From the NCBI GenBank assembly GCA_020056305.1, contig JAGVIA010000087.1:1-35166 (forward strand): a stretch of 35,166 nucleotides of DNA. Reading direction: 5' to 3'. Positions 10,847 through 19,407 of this stretch are shown here, one piece after another. This DNA comes from an archaeon (GTDB taxonomy: Archaea > Micrarchaeota > Micrarchaeia > Anstonellales > Anstonellaceae). Made by a program: the position numbers and the translations under genes. Every line of letters starts with the position of its first letter. Positions within the stretch are counted from its first letter, which is position 1. The notes under the pieces are model-generated. The model made no database searches, was not told where the DNA came from, and worked only from the letters and a program-made list of their open reading frames with translations.

Positions 10847-10952
10847 CGGGCCCGGAGGGATACTCTAAGGCTATTCAAACCAGAAAAGCCCGTTCGAACC
10901 CTCGACACATTGGTTAAGAGCCAATCGCTCTACCAAGCTGAGCTACGGGCCC
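10847..10952 (-). tRNA. tRNA-Lys(CUU) interrupted in the T-loop
   Basis: Minus strand GGGCCCG-TA-GCTC..GAGC-G-ATTGG-CTCTTAA-CCAAT-GTGTC-GAGGG-TTCGAA[32 nt]T-CCCTC-CGGGCCC-G. Acceptor, D, anticodon and T stems pair; anticodon CTT; no CCA encoded. TATA-like TTTTTATA lies ~30 nt upstream. Confidence 0.92.
10861..10892 (-). other. 32-nt insert (putative intron) in the tRNA-Lys T-loop, position 59/60
   Basis: CGGGCTTTTCTGGTTTGAATAGCCTTAGAGTA between TTCGAA and T-CCCTC. Boundary is uncertain by about 1 nt. Confidence 0.8.
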
Positions 10953-11007
10953 GCGTGGAAAACTTATCGCCGTCAAGGTATAAAAATGCATTCGCACAAA
11001 CACACAC

Positions 11008-13557: not shown

Positions 13558-15945
13558 ATGCCACTAAAGCGCGCCGTCCTAATTGATGTTGATTATACTA
13601 TCAAGGACGGCAAAACACTGGTGCGCCTTCTAATGAAGGGCAAGCGCTTTTTCCGCCTCTACGATTTCTACGACCCCTATTTCTACATTGACGCGCCGAT
13701 TTCGAAAAAAGACGAAATAATGAAAGCATCAGTTGACGAGCGCGGCCAGAAAGTCTCGCCAACTTCCGTTGAGGAAGTCACGCGCACGCTTTTCGGCAAG
13801 GAGAAAAAGCTCCTGAAAGTCACCTGCCTCATCCCCAGCGCAGTGCCAAAGCTCCGCGACAAGCTCCCGCACTTTCCGGCATACGAATACCGCATCCTGT
13901 TTGGCAGGCGCTACATGATTGACAAGAATATTGCGCCCTTCTCCACGCTAATTTACGAGCGCGAAGGAAAATTCCTGAAAAAAATCCACCGCACTGCCGA
14001 TTTGCCCTTCTCTCTTCGCACTGCCGCATTTGACATCGAAACATACAACCCCCGCGGCGCCCCCCGCCCCAAGCTCGACCCCACCATCATGATTTCCTAT
14101 GCAAATGGCAAGCAGCAAGTTATCACCACCAAGAAAATCGACAAGCCATTCATCGAGCATGCAAAGGATGAGAAGGAGATGATTACTCAGTTCTGCAAGC
14201 TTCTCTCCGAGCAGGACATTGAGGTTCTCCTTGGCTACAATAGCGCAGTGTTCGACCTGCCTTATCTCGCAGCGCGCGCCGACATTCTCAAAGTGCCCCT
14301 ATCGCTTGGCCGCGACGGCTCGTCTTTTCGCATCAGGAAGATGGGCATCCGCGAAACAGCGGAAATAACCGGCCGCCTGCACATCGATCTCTACTCAATC
14401 ATCCGCTTCCTCGGCTTCATAGGTGCGCTCAAGGTCTCAAAATTCACGCTTGAAAACGCCTACTCGGAAATCACTGGCAAGAAAAAATACATGGTGGACA
14501 GGCTTGCCATACACGAAATGTGGGACAAGGGCGGCGAGAAACTCGATACGCTTGCCGATTACTCCATGATGGACGCGAAAGCGACATTAGAGCTAGGCTC
14601 CGTTGTCATGCCCCTTGAAATAGAAATGAGCAAGCTGGTCCGGCTTCCGCTCTTTGACACTGCGAATGCAACTGCAGGGCAGCTTGTGGAATCCCTTCTC
14701 ATGCACCGCTCGTACCATGCAGGGGCAATAATTCCGAACAAGCCGGGCAGTGAAGAAGCAGCCGAGCGCGAAAAAAACCCAATACAGGGCGCGTTTGTGA
14801 AGCTCCCCCAGCCTGGCATTTATGACAATCTCGCAGTATTCGACTTCCGGGGATTGTATCCCTCAATCATTACATCGCACAATATCGACCCGTACACGCT
14901 CAACTGCGACTGCTGCAAGCAGGACAGCTACGTTTCCCCGCTTGGGCACCGCTTCTGCAAGAAAAAGAAAGGACTCATCCCAGCAGTGCTTGCAGATATC
15001 ATCTCCCAGCGCGCAAAGCTCAAAGGCGAGCTCAAAGCGCTCGAAAAAGATTCCAGCGAATACACGCGTCTCTTTGCGCGCCAGCAATCCCTCAAGATAC
15101 TTGCAAACTCCTACTACGGATATCTTGCGTATGCGCGCTCGCGCTGGTACTCGCGCGAGGCAGGCGAATCCGTCACCGCCTGGGGCCGCCACTACATACA
15201 GGAGACAATAAAAAAAGCGGAGACAGCAGGATTTGAGATTCTTTACGGAGACACTGATTCCATCTTCATCCTTCTTGGACAACACAGCAAGGACGACGCT
15301 CTTTCATTCATGAAGAAAATAAATGACGCGCTTCCGGGCGACATGGAGCTTGAGCTTGAGGCATTCTACCCCCGTGGCGTGTTTGTCACGAAAAAAGGCT
15401 TGGGCGGAAAAGGCGCGAAGAAAAAGTACGCGCTCATTGGCGAGGATGGCAAGATAAAGATACGCGGCTTTGAGCTTGTGCGCCGCGACTGGTCAAGGAT
15501 TGCCAAGGATACGCAGATGCGCGTGCTCGAAGCCATACTCAAAGAGGGCAGCAAGGAAAAGGCAGTGAAAATAGTGCGCGATGAGATAGAACGGCTGCGT
15601 GAAGGGAAAGTGCCCCTTGAAGACCTGACCATTTACACGCAGCTCAACAAGAGCCCAGGCAGCTACGAAATAAAATCCCCGGAGCTTTCCGCAGCGCAAA
15701 AGGCGGCAAAGGCAGGCATAAAATTCGACCGCGGCTCCCTCATCGGCTATGTGATTACGAAGTCCGGCTCAACAATATCGGATAAGGCAGTGGTGCTGGA
15801 GCTTGCGCAAGATTACGACCCTAACTATTACATTGACCATCAGGTGCTTCCATCTGTCCTAAAAATCCTAAAAGAGCTGGGCTTTTCAGAAGATGATTTG
15901 AAATTCAAAGGGACGCAAAAAGGGCTGGGGGGCTTTTTCGAATGA
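13558..15945 (+). CDS. Archaeal family B DNA polymerase
   Basis: Exo motif AFDIETY, polymerase motifs DFRGLYPSIITSHNI, KILANSYYGYL, YGDTDSIF, KKKYA; C-terminal PIP-box-like QKGLGGFF. Confidence 0.97.
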   Translation: MPLKRAVLIDVDYTIKDGKTLVRLLMKGKRFFRLYDFYDPYFYIDAPISKKDEIMKASVDERGQKVSPTSVEEVTRTLFGKEKKLLKVTCLIPSAVPKLRDKLPHFPAYEYRILFGRRYMIDKNIAPFSTLIYEREGKFLKKIHRTADLPFSLRTAAFDIETYNPRGAPRPKLDPTIMISYANGKQQVITTKKIDKPFIEHAKDEKEMITQFCKLLSEQDIEVLLGYNSAVFDLPYLAARADILKVPLSLGRDGSSFRIRKMGIRETAEITGRLHIDLYSIIRFLGFIGALKVSKFTLENAYSEITGKKKYMVDRLAIHEMWDKGGEKLDTLADYSMMDAKATLELGSVVMPLEIEMSKLVRLPLFDTANATAGQLVESLLMHRSYHAGAIIPNKPGSEEAAEREKNPIQGAFVKLPQPGIYDNLAVFDFRGLYPSIITSHNIDPYTLNCDCCKQDSYVSPLGHRFCKKKKGLIPAVLADIISQRAKLKGELKALEKDSSEYTRLFARQQSLKILANSYYGYLAYARSRWYSREAGESVTAWGRHYIQETIKKAETAGFEILYGDTDSIFILLGQHSKDDALSFMKKINDALPGDMELELEAFYPRGVFVTKKGLGGKGAKKKYALIGEDGKIKIRGFELVRRDWSRIAKDTQMRVLEAILKEGSKEKAVKIVRDEIERLREGKVPLEDLTIYTQLNKSPGSYEIKSPELSAAQKAAKAGIKFDRGSLIGYVITKSGSTISDKAVVLELAQDYDPNYYIDHQVLPSVLKILKELGFSEDDLKFKGTQKGLGGFFE

Positions 15946-17267
15946 GAAAAATGTTTTTTGCAGTTGCAGCTGTCTTTATTTTCCTCTTTTTGGCAGGATG
16001 CACGCAGAATGGCACTCTCCCTCCAGACATCGCCAAACAAAAGCAATTGTGCGAGGCAACTGGCGGCACTTTCACCTATTGCGAGCCTGGCGCCGTATGC
16101 AAGGTTGGAACAGGTTGCCAATGCCCCGAAGGCCAGCAATTCGACAGCATGCTCGGCTGCATGCACTTGCAGGATGCGAAAACAAAGATAATCTGCGAGA
16201 ATAGCGGAGGCAGATACAACTATTGCAAGGAGCAGGCATGCATTTCAGGCTGCATCTGCAACCCTGGCCAGAAATTCGATGCGCAGCTTGGCTGCACTGC
16301 AAAAAGTGCAAATACGACAGTTGCTGTGAATCAAACCATTGCTCCTGCGCCAAACCAACCATCAACATTACCTAATCGTATCTGGTATTTCGCCTTCGGT
16401 TCAAACCTCAATTTCAAGGGCATGCAAGGCCGCGTGGGCTACTGGCCCGAAGTGCGAAAAGCCATCCTGCCAAATTACCTGCGCACATTCGCAGGCGCAG
16501 GGGACATCCGCCAGAATTCCTCCTCTCTTGTCTATGGCGCAATCTATCTGCTAAATGAAACCCAGATGCAGGCGCTTGACCGCTACGAAGGCGTGGCATC
16601 AGGCAATTACCGCCGCATAAATGTCACGGTTGTCGCGTTAGGCAATCAGTCAAATGAAATGCTGCCCGCAGTTGCCTACCAATTCGTAACCCCGCGCCCG
16701 TTCTCACCCCCTTCAGAGGGCTACCTCAACACAATCATCGAGGGCATGCATGACAATGGCTATGGGGATTACGAAATAGGATTGCTGCTAAAAGAAGCAA
16801 GAAAGAGTGCGGCAACTCCGAATAAAACCAAGTCCGATTCATACTGGCGCGGCGAGGCAAGACCATTTTCGATACTGGAGCATACGGCAAATAGTTCTAC
16901 TATTACTTTGGTTGTGCAAAATGTTGAGTTTGACGTGCTCACCATCCGTGGCATCAGTATTGGCTCGGTGCCATGCCTGCCTGGAACTTTGCAAAGCCCG
17001 CCAGAAACGAGTTACACACCATGTTATGGTGGGCGGGGAGCAAGCTGCCCTTCTCTCCTTCTTATCAACGGGGCATACCTAAACATAACTTCGCTTGAAT
17101 TTGCAGGCGGCGCAAGAAAAGTGATGCGTTGCTCTACCGACATTTGCCAAGCGCTTGTCCGCGGCTCAACCTATGCTGCAGATATTTCCATATCTTACGA
17201 TTCGCAAGAGCTAAACAACCAAATCCAAAAAGGGTCAGAAAGGTTGGTTGGAGAGTGCACGGGCTAA
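15942..17267 (+). CDS. Lipoprotein with two Cys-rich modules and a gamma-glutamylcyclotransferase-like domain
   Basis: Lipobox FLFLAGC; LCEATGGTFTYCEPGAVCKVGTGCQCPEGQQFDSMLGC; then WYFAFGSNLNFKGMQGR...LVYGAIYLLNETQMQALDRYEGVASGNYRR. ATGA overlap with polB. Confidence 0.8.
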   Translation: MRKMFFAVAAVFIFLFLAGCTQNGTLPPDIAKQKQLCEATGGTFTYCEPGAVCKVGTGCQCPEGQQFDSMLGCMHLQDAKTKIICENSGGRYNYCKEQACISGCICNPGQKFDAQLGCTAKSANTTVAVNQTIAPAPNQPSTLPNRIWYFAFGSNLNFKGMQGRVGYWPEVRKAILPNYLRTFAGAGDIRQNSSSLVYGAIYLLNETQMQALDRYEGVASGNYRRINVTVVALGNQSNEMLPAVAYQFVTPRPFSPPSEGYLNTIIEGMHDNGYGDYEIGLLLKEARKSAATPNKTKSDSYWRGEARPFSILEHTANSSTITLVVQNVEFDVLTIRGISIGSVPCLPGTLQSPPETSYTPCYGGRGASCPSLLLINGAYLNITSLEFAGGARKVMRCSTDICQALVRGSTYAADISISYDSQELNNQIQKGSERLVGECTG

Positions 17268-18186: not shown

Positions 18187-19407
18187 CTATGCATCGCAAT
18201 ACTCCACAAACGCATCATGTATTCTCTCAACATTTAATAATTCGCATTTTGCCCCGCAGCCAAGCATTAAAACAAGCGAAGGCTTTGTCCTGCCGCCATC
18301 CCCGCTTGCAAATTCCTTTATGTATGTTCCCGCCTCGGCAAACAACTGAACGGACAGCTTGCCGCCTTCAATGCTTGCGCTTGCAGAATAAATCCTTCTC
18401 TTCCTCACCAAATCAGAGCGCCTCTGCATAACGCGAAGCGGCGTCTGCTGCAAAAGCAGCAGATTTTTTATCGCATTTATTTTCCCCACGTCTTCTTCTG
18501 TCGGCTCCCTCTCAAGTGCAACTATTGCAAAATATTCCTTGCCAAAATGCGAATTGCACACGATTTCAATCCATTTTGCCGAGACGAATTTCAAAGAGCG
18601 GGCAAGAACGCCCCTCGCTCCTTCCGCCGCAGCCATTTCCTGCGCCCCGCCGCTTTTTTTCATTGTATTGGAATTTCTATATTCCAATGCGGACAAATTT
18701 TTGCGAAAATTTGTCCCCGTCTTTGCGATTTCCGCCTCAAGCGCCCTGAGGTTCACGCCTCTTTTCCTTGCCCCATTCACCCGCAGCACAAACGGCCTGC
18801 CATCCCCAAGCATCTGCGCATCAATGTCCTCCCGCCCCGCGGCATGAAATGTGCATTCCTTTGCCTCAAAGAGCCTCTTTGCAGGATTGCAAATCGCCGC
18901 CTCAACAGACGCAAATTTCACTCCCTTCCCGCCGCACTCACTGCATCCGCTTCCCCTGCATTTTCTGCAGTGCCATTCGGATTGCGAGGTTTCCCTGCCA
19001 AGCTTGTTGTATCTCCCGAAAACGAAAATCGGCTGGGGCACTGCCTTCCCCCTCATCGAAAGAAAATCCATGGCAAAAACGGCATCCGGGTTCTTCCCCG
19101 ATTTCTTGCCAGTTTTCTCCTCCACAGAAGCAACAATCGCGGCATTCACTGCATTTTTCACACATATTCCGGCATCCGCACTCTCAGTGTCCCACAAATC
19201 CTCTTCGCGTGCAAAATCCTCCCTCGGAAGCGAGCTTTGCGCGCCAAAAGTAATCCATTCAAAATCAGCACCTGCAATTGCCTCTGCCACTAGCGCAGGC
19301 AGTTTTTCCAATTTCCCCCTGCAGATGTGGCATTCGCTTGCGCTCTTTGCAAGCAATCCAATAGGATGGCATTTTTTGCAAAATGAGCACAACGGATAGC
19401 TTTCCAT
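18187..19407 (-). CDS. pus10: tRNA pseudouridine synthase Pus10
   Basis: N-terminal CSFCKKC...CHIC zinc motif; catalytic-region FHAAGREDIDAQMLGDGRPFVLRV; QQTPLRVMQRRSDLVRKRRIY; AGTYIKEFASGDGGRTKPSL. Confidence 0.92.
   Translation of the reverse strand: MESYPLCSFCKKCHPIGLLAKSASECHICRGKLEKLPALVAEAIAGADFEWITFGAQSSLPREDFAREEDLWDTESADAGICVKNAVNAAIVASVEEKTGKKSGKNPDAVFAMDFLSMRGKAVPQPIFVFGRYNKLGRETSQSEWHCRKCRGSGCSECGGKGVKFASVEAAICNPAKRLFEAKECTFHAAGREDIDAQMLGDGRPFVLRVNGARKRGVNLRALEAEIAKTGTNFRKNLSALEYRNSNTMKKSGGAQEMAAAEGARGVLARSLKFVSAKWIEIVCNSHFGKEYFAIVALEREPTEEDVGKINAIKNLLLLQQTPLRVMQRRSDLVRKRRIYSASASIEGGKLSVQLFAEAGTYIKEFASGDGGRTKPSLVLMLGCGAKCELLNVERIHDAFVEYCDA
18665..18716 (+). repeat. 52-bp double-hairpin repeat, copy A (inside pus10)
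   Basis: gtattggaatttctatattccaatgcggacaaatttttgcgaaaatttgtcc: TTGGAAT/ATTCCAA and GGACAAATTTT/AAAATTTGTCC; 51/52 identical to 20411-20462. Confidence 0.95.

Follow-up and report, generated by a model that had tools for sequence, protein, structure and literature searches.

The tRNA-Lys(CUU) gene described here is interrupted in its T-loop by a 32-nt insert, which is with high probability a non-canonical archaeal tRNA intron at position 59/60: judging from the sequence, its splice sites would lie in a bulge-helix-bulge motif built on the T-loop TTCR, to be cut by an epsilon2 endonuclease and joined by RtcB. The window (the whole stretch of DNA that was analyzed, 35,166 nt) is contig C104 of a Micrarchaeota MAG (1.38 Mb, 90% complete, 108 contigs) that shares its family with Ca. 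Anstonella. The features under discussion are as follows.

10952-10847, minus strand: tRNA-Lys(CUU), whole gene
10893..10952, minus strand: 5' exon of tRNA-Lys(CUU), positions 1-59, with anticodon loop CTCTTAA; the 12 acceptor and T-stem pairs are complete with the 3' exon
10861..10892, minus strand: T-loop insert of tRNA-Lys(CUU), putative 32-nt intron at 59/60; the fold predicts the T-stem, a TTC/GAG helix, a 3-nt UA/U bulge and an intron helix GGGCU
10847..10860, minus strand: 3' exon of tRNA-Lys(CUU), positions 60-73, TCCCTCCGGGCCCG
10979..10986, minus strand: putative TATA-like box as read from the sequence, TTTTTATA, at a distance of 27-34 nt from the 5' end of tRNA-Lys
18187..19407, minus strand: Pus10, tRNA pseudouridine(54/55) synthase (NCBIfam TIGR01213, 272.7 bits, cut-off 200; Pfam Pus10_C)
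30097-30215, plus strand: tRNA-Glu(UUC), whole gene
30097..30157, plus strand: 5' exon of tRNA-Glu(UUC), positions 1-59
30158..30201, plus strand: T-loop insert of tRNA-Glu(UUC), putative 44-nt intron at 59/60, with a strong internal hairpin and a weak central helix (2/4 pairs)
30202..30215, plus strand: 3' exon of tRNA-Glu(UUC), positions 60-73, TCCCGGTCGGAGCA

On the minus strand, the Lys gene runs through GAGGG-TTCGAA into the insert CGGGCTTTTCTGGTTTGAATAGCCTTAGAGTA (10892-10861) and resumes with T-CCCTC-CGGGCCC-G, exactly as quoted in the earlier note, which had placed the inserts of tRNA-Lys and tRNA-Glu at the same position. Without the insert the Lys gene is a complete tRNA with perfectly paired acceptor and T-stems, and its joined exons form the complete cloverleaf expected around an archaeal bulge-helix-bulge tRNA intron; the Glu gene is likewise complete apart from its insert. 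Because the 3'-terminal base of the Lys insert is A, the spliced product would be identical for boundaries at 58/59 and 59/60, and the modeled bulge-helix-bulge geometry favors the latter. No match to a self-splicing (group I or II) ribozyme family was obtained for the 32-nt insert in an Rfam gathering search of the window, which returned tRNA only. Scans for bacterial-type promoters and terminators around the gene, which are ill-suited to archaea, found none.

With the T-stem as outer helix and a 3' splice site of the form NN/T60, positions 54-57 must pair with the intron bases three to six from its 3' end. In a set of 30 T-loop introns (partly non-independent, several coming from one repeat family), this central helix has a mean of 3.2 out of 4 pairs, compared to 1.68 (sd 0.17) for shuffled sequences, and none of 5000 shuffles matched the observed pairing. 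At least three pairs form at offset 2 in 24 of the 30 introns, versus 2-10 introns at other offsets, and YGAA-NN is the 3' end of many of them. Since the pairing occurs at the single offset expected, the invariant T-loop TTCR (54-57) appears to double as a strand of the splice motif. In the minimum-energy fold of the Lys precursor, TTC (54-56) pairs with intron GAG to give a 3-bp central helix and a 3-nt UA/U bulge; with three of four pairs and a G-A mismatch, this motif is relaxed, rather than composed of two 3-nt bulges and a 4-bp helix. The central helix is weaker still in Glu (two of four pairs) and Tyr (one), and a strong internal hairpin accompanies a poor central helix both in the Glu insert and in a similar 42-nt intron in tRNA-Thr(UGU) of G005, a genome from the same family as the host. 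Such weak central helices would require relaxed recognition by the splicing enzyme. A helix between GTTCGAAC and GTTTGAAT, suggested earlier to sequester the T-loop before splicing, is not supported by folding of the Lys precursor (pairing probability ∼0.001; -12.4 compared to -16.9 kcal/mol for the favored fold).

The host genome encodes a splicing endonuclease of 407 aa, of which residues 17-407 align with residues 3-387 of the ARMAN-2 EndA (PDB 4fz2) at 449 bits. By this alignment, the protein is an epsilon2-type three-unit fusion (alphaN-alpha-betaC), in which the catalytic residues Y236, H251, and K282, as well as K161 of the ARMAN-specific loop (ASL; numbering from PMC6379350), are all conserved; identity to the nearest Micrarchaeota records is 75-80%. 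According to reviews, endonucleases of the epsilon2 type accept relaxed motifs and cleave at diverse positions of tRNAs (PMC4033280; PMC6379350). The genome also encodes an RtcB ligase (568 bits), and, on contig C69, a second splicing-endonuclease-like protein with a single domain (192 aa; L032:1456-2034).

In the proposed precursor, the T-stem would act as the outer helix, and T-loop residues 54-57 would form a helix with intron bases shortly before the 3' splice site, giving the bulges A58 A59/C1 and U A/U60. Both bulges would be cut by the epsilon2-type endonuclease of the host, and joining of the exons by RtcB would restore the T-loop, which could then be open to Pus10, so that splicing would come before modification. 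The sequence itself shows the intact exons, the 59/60 position, the bulge-helix-bulge geometry at the population level, and the genes for the endonuclease, RtcB, and Pus10; excision, the exact cut sites, and the order of splicing and modification are inferred. Pus10 makes pseudouridine at positions 54/55, and given this target an intact T-loop would be needed. The location of its gene on the same contig as two T-loop-interrupted tRNA genes is probably a coincidence.

We surveyed the tRNA genes of the host by genome searches, extracting the stretches around the matches and reading each gene individually. Twelve of ∼38 genes carry an insert at 59/60: Lys(CUU), Glu(UUC), Glu(CUC), Val(CAC), Ala(CGC), Arg(UCG), Arg(UCU), Phe(GAA), Ser(CGA), Ser(GGA) and Tyr(GUA) (the insert limits of the latter two were set by eye, and the Tyr T-stem has one mismatch), and one tRNA tentatively assigned as Ile(UAU). 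The T-loop intron habit postulated in the earlier note is therefore genome-wide, and further cases were found in relatives, but it is not exclusive to the T-loop: in other host genes, as read by eye, introns occur at 37/38 (Asn, Trp, His, and Leu), and inserts occur in the D-loop (Gln(CUG), Leu(UAG), and Ser(GCU)) and at 53/54 (initiator Met) (loci L025, L034, L035, and L021). The sequence GCTTTT, pointed out near the 5' boundary of the Lys and Glu inserts, is present there and also in Tyr; it is limited to a few introns and was rejected as a general splice signal. The putative Ile(UAU) tRNA (C67:16730 onward; L036) has introns in both the anticodon loop and the T-loop; an Ile(UAU) tRNA would be unusual among archaea.

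Among the relatives, tRNA-Lys(CUU) has 59/60 inserts of 93 nt (G008), 97 nt (G005), 14 nt (G015), 22 nt (G007), and 65 nt (G027), and probably also an insert in G034; several other relatives have a 37/38 intron in this gene and many have none. Exon pairs that span the Lys insert show compensatory changes in 15 orthologues, with no broken pairs (the position 50 pair is AT, TA, or GC, and acceptor pair 7 is GC or AT). Inserts at 59/60 of tRNA-Glu(UUC) also occur in G034 and G007, and T-loop inserts were found at additional Micrarchaeota and Aenigmatarchaeota loci that had been retrieved via the endonuclease.

Some of the T-loop inserts in relatives belong to a repeat family. This ∼96-nt repeat, ACCTAGGGGG...CCCCTGAGGTTTCACCCC...GGTTGAAAA (R1), is found in T-loops of G005 and G008 and between genes. 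Its T-loop hosts, some of which were assigned to isoacceptors by eye, are Gly(GCC), Pro(GGG), Pro(CGG), Leu(CAA), Lys(CUU), Ser(GCU), Ser(CGA), Tyr, and a CAU tRNA; R1 also interrupts some Arg(UCU) genes at 37/38, and in several places it starts 0-1 nt 3' of an intact tRNA-Val or tRNA-Ala (L245, L250, L252, and L242). A covariance model of R1, whose fold is supported by few compensatory changes, matched 20 of 59 relatives at E 0.01 and, at E 1e-5, 12 of the 296 genomes searched from the phylum, most of them Anstonellaceae. Among the copies that follow a tRNA, one lies in the host genome, right behind tRNA-Val(GAC) (C51:3455-3535; L226). The non-intronic copies that were tested matched no Rfam family.

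The presence of R1 in the T-loops of several isoacceptors of G005 and G008, including tRNA-Lys(CUU), raises the alternative that a mobile intron of this sort was copied into the Lys gene, where it would be spliceable only secondarily. We regard this as improbable, since the 32-nt insert has no similarity to R1 or to any other sequence that was fetched, and recent copying is an unlikely source for it on this comparison. The covariance model gave no convincing match in the window, and R1 was rejected as the origin of the window inserts.

A reading as retained T-loop expansions of mature tRNAs, from which nothing is excised, is considerably less probable still. The stable hairpin of the Glu insert could protrude from such a molecule, but removal of the insert gives a standard T-loop in nearly all cases, insert lengths span 13-161 nt, presence varies between orthologues, and the splice-site complementarity of their 3' boundary is limited to one offset; these features argue for removable introns.

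Standard tRNA finders miss the interrupted genes, as might be expected of pseudogenes. ARAGORN detected neither the Lys nor the Glu gene in the window, and the Rfam model fitted the Lys gene wrongly, with its end placed inside the insert. We used a scanner for interrupted tRNAs, which requires 12-bp acceptor plus T-stem pairing across the gap in addition to the D-stem and anticodon stem; scores of 30.9 (Lys) and 29.5 (Glu), compared to a maximum of 25.2 on reversed sequence, indicate that the inserts are not due to chance. Searches of the 90% complete genome for another Lys(CUU) or Glu(UUC) gene gave none; one truncated tRNA at a contig end (C21) is of a type that is not assignable. The earlier note had named T-loop inserts missing from other tRNAs, together with intact copies of these two genes elsewhere, as the contrary outcome; we looked for both and found neither. 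Decay to pseudogenes is thus very improbable for what are the sole copies found of these isoacceptors, with intact exon stems, compensatory changes across the insert, and an architecture common to many tRNAs and genera. An assembly or sequencing artifact, conceivable in a MAG of 108 contigs, can be practically dismissed, as inserts at this very position recur in independent genomes that were obtained in other studies, among them LFW-35 and a number of records from Micrarchaeota and Aenigmatarchaeota.

A non-canonical 59/60 intron remains the preferred reading of the Lys insert, and some tRNA genes preserve what may be traces of how introns are gained at this site. In the host, a second copy of positions 60-73 occurs 82-115 nt downstream of Thr(CGU), Ser(UGA), Leu(CAA), and Ser(CGA) (L002, L015, L020, and L029), and such copies are also found with Glu(UUC) of G008 and G024 and with a Gly gene of G005 (L181, L201, and L161); over host and relatives, the spacing is 82-165 nt. 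The left edge of the repeats falls at or within 2 nt of position 60, with the exception of Ser(CGA), whose edge is blurred by a run of A. Complementarity typical of a splice site precedes the 60-73 copy in Leu only, and a search for 3' exon remnants within T-loop introns gave no convincing case. Either a link to the gain of introns or an origin as leftovers from integration at T-loops is conceivable for these duplicates. The Glu(UUC) gene of G024 has additional, decayed copies of positions 60-73, and in some cases an inverted copy of the acceptor lies between the tRNA and the repeat. Inverted acceptor repeats behind tRNAs were rejected as a general feature, with counts not clearly above those for permuted pairs.

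The niches of R1 (37/38, 59/60, and the nucleotide past the 3' end) are all cut sites of precursor tRNA, so copying may proceed through RNA: the endonuclease and RtcB would join an excised repeat to a cleaved tRNA, and the product would then be copied back into DNA. We offer only tentatively, and as a doubtful proposition, that a short RNA repeat with a defined structure spreads by this route among tRNAs of Anstonellaceae as an intron, with the 60-73 duplicates formed on the way to, or alongside, new introns at 59/60. In the Ser(CGA) T-loop intron, the first 35 nt are identical to the sequence just behind tRNA-Asp (C25:424-449 and C59:10226-10251; L253 and L254). The core palindrome of this stretch, CCTTTTCTTT..AAAGAAAAG, was considered as a widespread element and rejected as such, since the Ser(CGA) intron and the site behind tRNA-Asp hold the only two exact copies of the genome.

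Non-canonical bulge-helix-bulge introns, including some at 59/60, are known from archaea, mainly from Crenarchaeota and Nanoarchaeota (PMC4090602). The introns described here resemble these in the 59/60 site, the bulge-helix-bulge or relaxed motif, the (here predicted) cleavage by the splicing endonuclease, and the occurrence of several introns in some tRNA genes; they differ in the Micrarchaeota host, the dominance of 59/60 (12/∼38), and the use of TTCR as a central-helix strand. With ARMAN-1 and ARMAN-2 (PMC4033280; PMC6379350; PMC12397907) the host shares the endonuclease type, the phylum Micrarchaeota, and relaxed motifs at several tRNA positions, although it belongs to another order and family. 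Because both 59/60 introns and the broad-specificity epsilon2 endonuclease were already known, the Lys insert is ordinary for its kind, and very probably a real, removable intron of a known type. What may be new is the genome-wide 59/60 pattern in Anstonellaceae, TTCR as a splice helix across 30 introns, and R1; parts of all this could have been described previously. We found no description of T-loop introns of Anstonellaceae in the open papers covered, which treat ARMAN introns and the transposition of introns at second hand, and the genome paper for LFW-35 (Candidatus Anstonella stagnisolia, Anstonellaceae; PMC8561730) never mentions introns.

Transposable tRNA introns of Thermoproteales, as summarized in PMC4090602 and PMC4390854 from Fujishima et al. 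(2010), closely resemble one another in different isoacceptors. As far as these summaries go, R1 of the relatives is comparable in its similar sequence across isoacceptors and its canonical and non-canonical sites, but it also occurs 0-1 nt past tRNA 3' ends and between genes, in an unrelated lineage with a different endonuclease type; the Lys intron lies outside R1 and, unlike the introns so summarized, has no similar copy in other isoacceptors among the sequences fetched. In Caldiarchaeum, integration of a mobile element disrupts a tRNA, with a 5' tRNA fragment and a 1.9-kb insertion that has a putative recombinase gene (PMC3293823). Both cases have directly repeated tRNA fragments, which here may be linked to the gain of introns, whereas here the spacing is 82-165 nt, no gene is present, and the fragments are 3' fragments from position 60.

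With T-loop introns in up to one third of tRNAs, orthologues with and without an intron, and R1, the Anstonellaceae provide a natural series for intron gain, movement, and decay, of relevance to how archaeal tRNA introns arise. As the standard finder that was tried misses interrupted genes, both the number of tRNAs and any completeness estimate based on them may be too low for such MAGs.

Elsewhere in the window, three secreted-looking proteins on the plus strand (15942-17267, 28314-29444, and 29451-30047) have common Cys-rich repeats, CEKTGGSFTYC...CKVGTGCQC. A family search with the proteins at 28314-29444 and 29451-30047 gave nothing above the cut-off, and the protein at 15942-17267 has a gamma-glutamylcyclotransferase-like domain.
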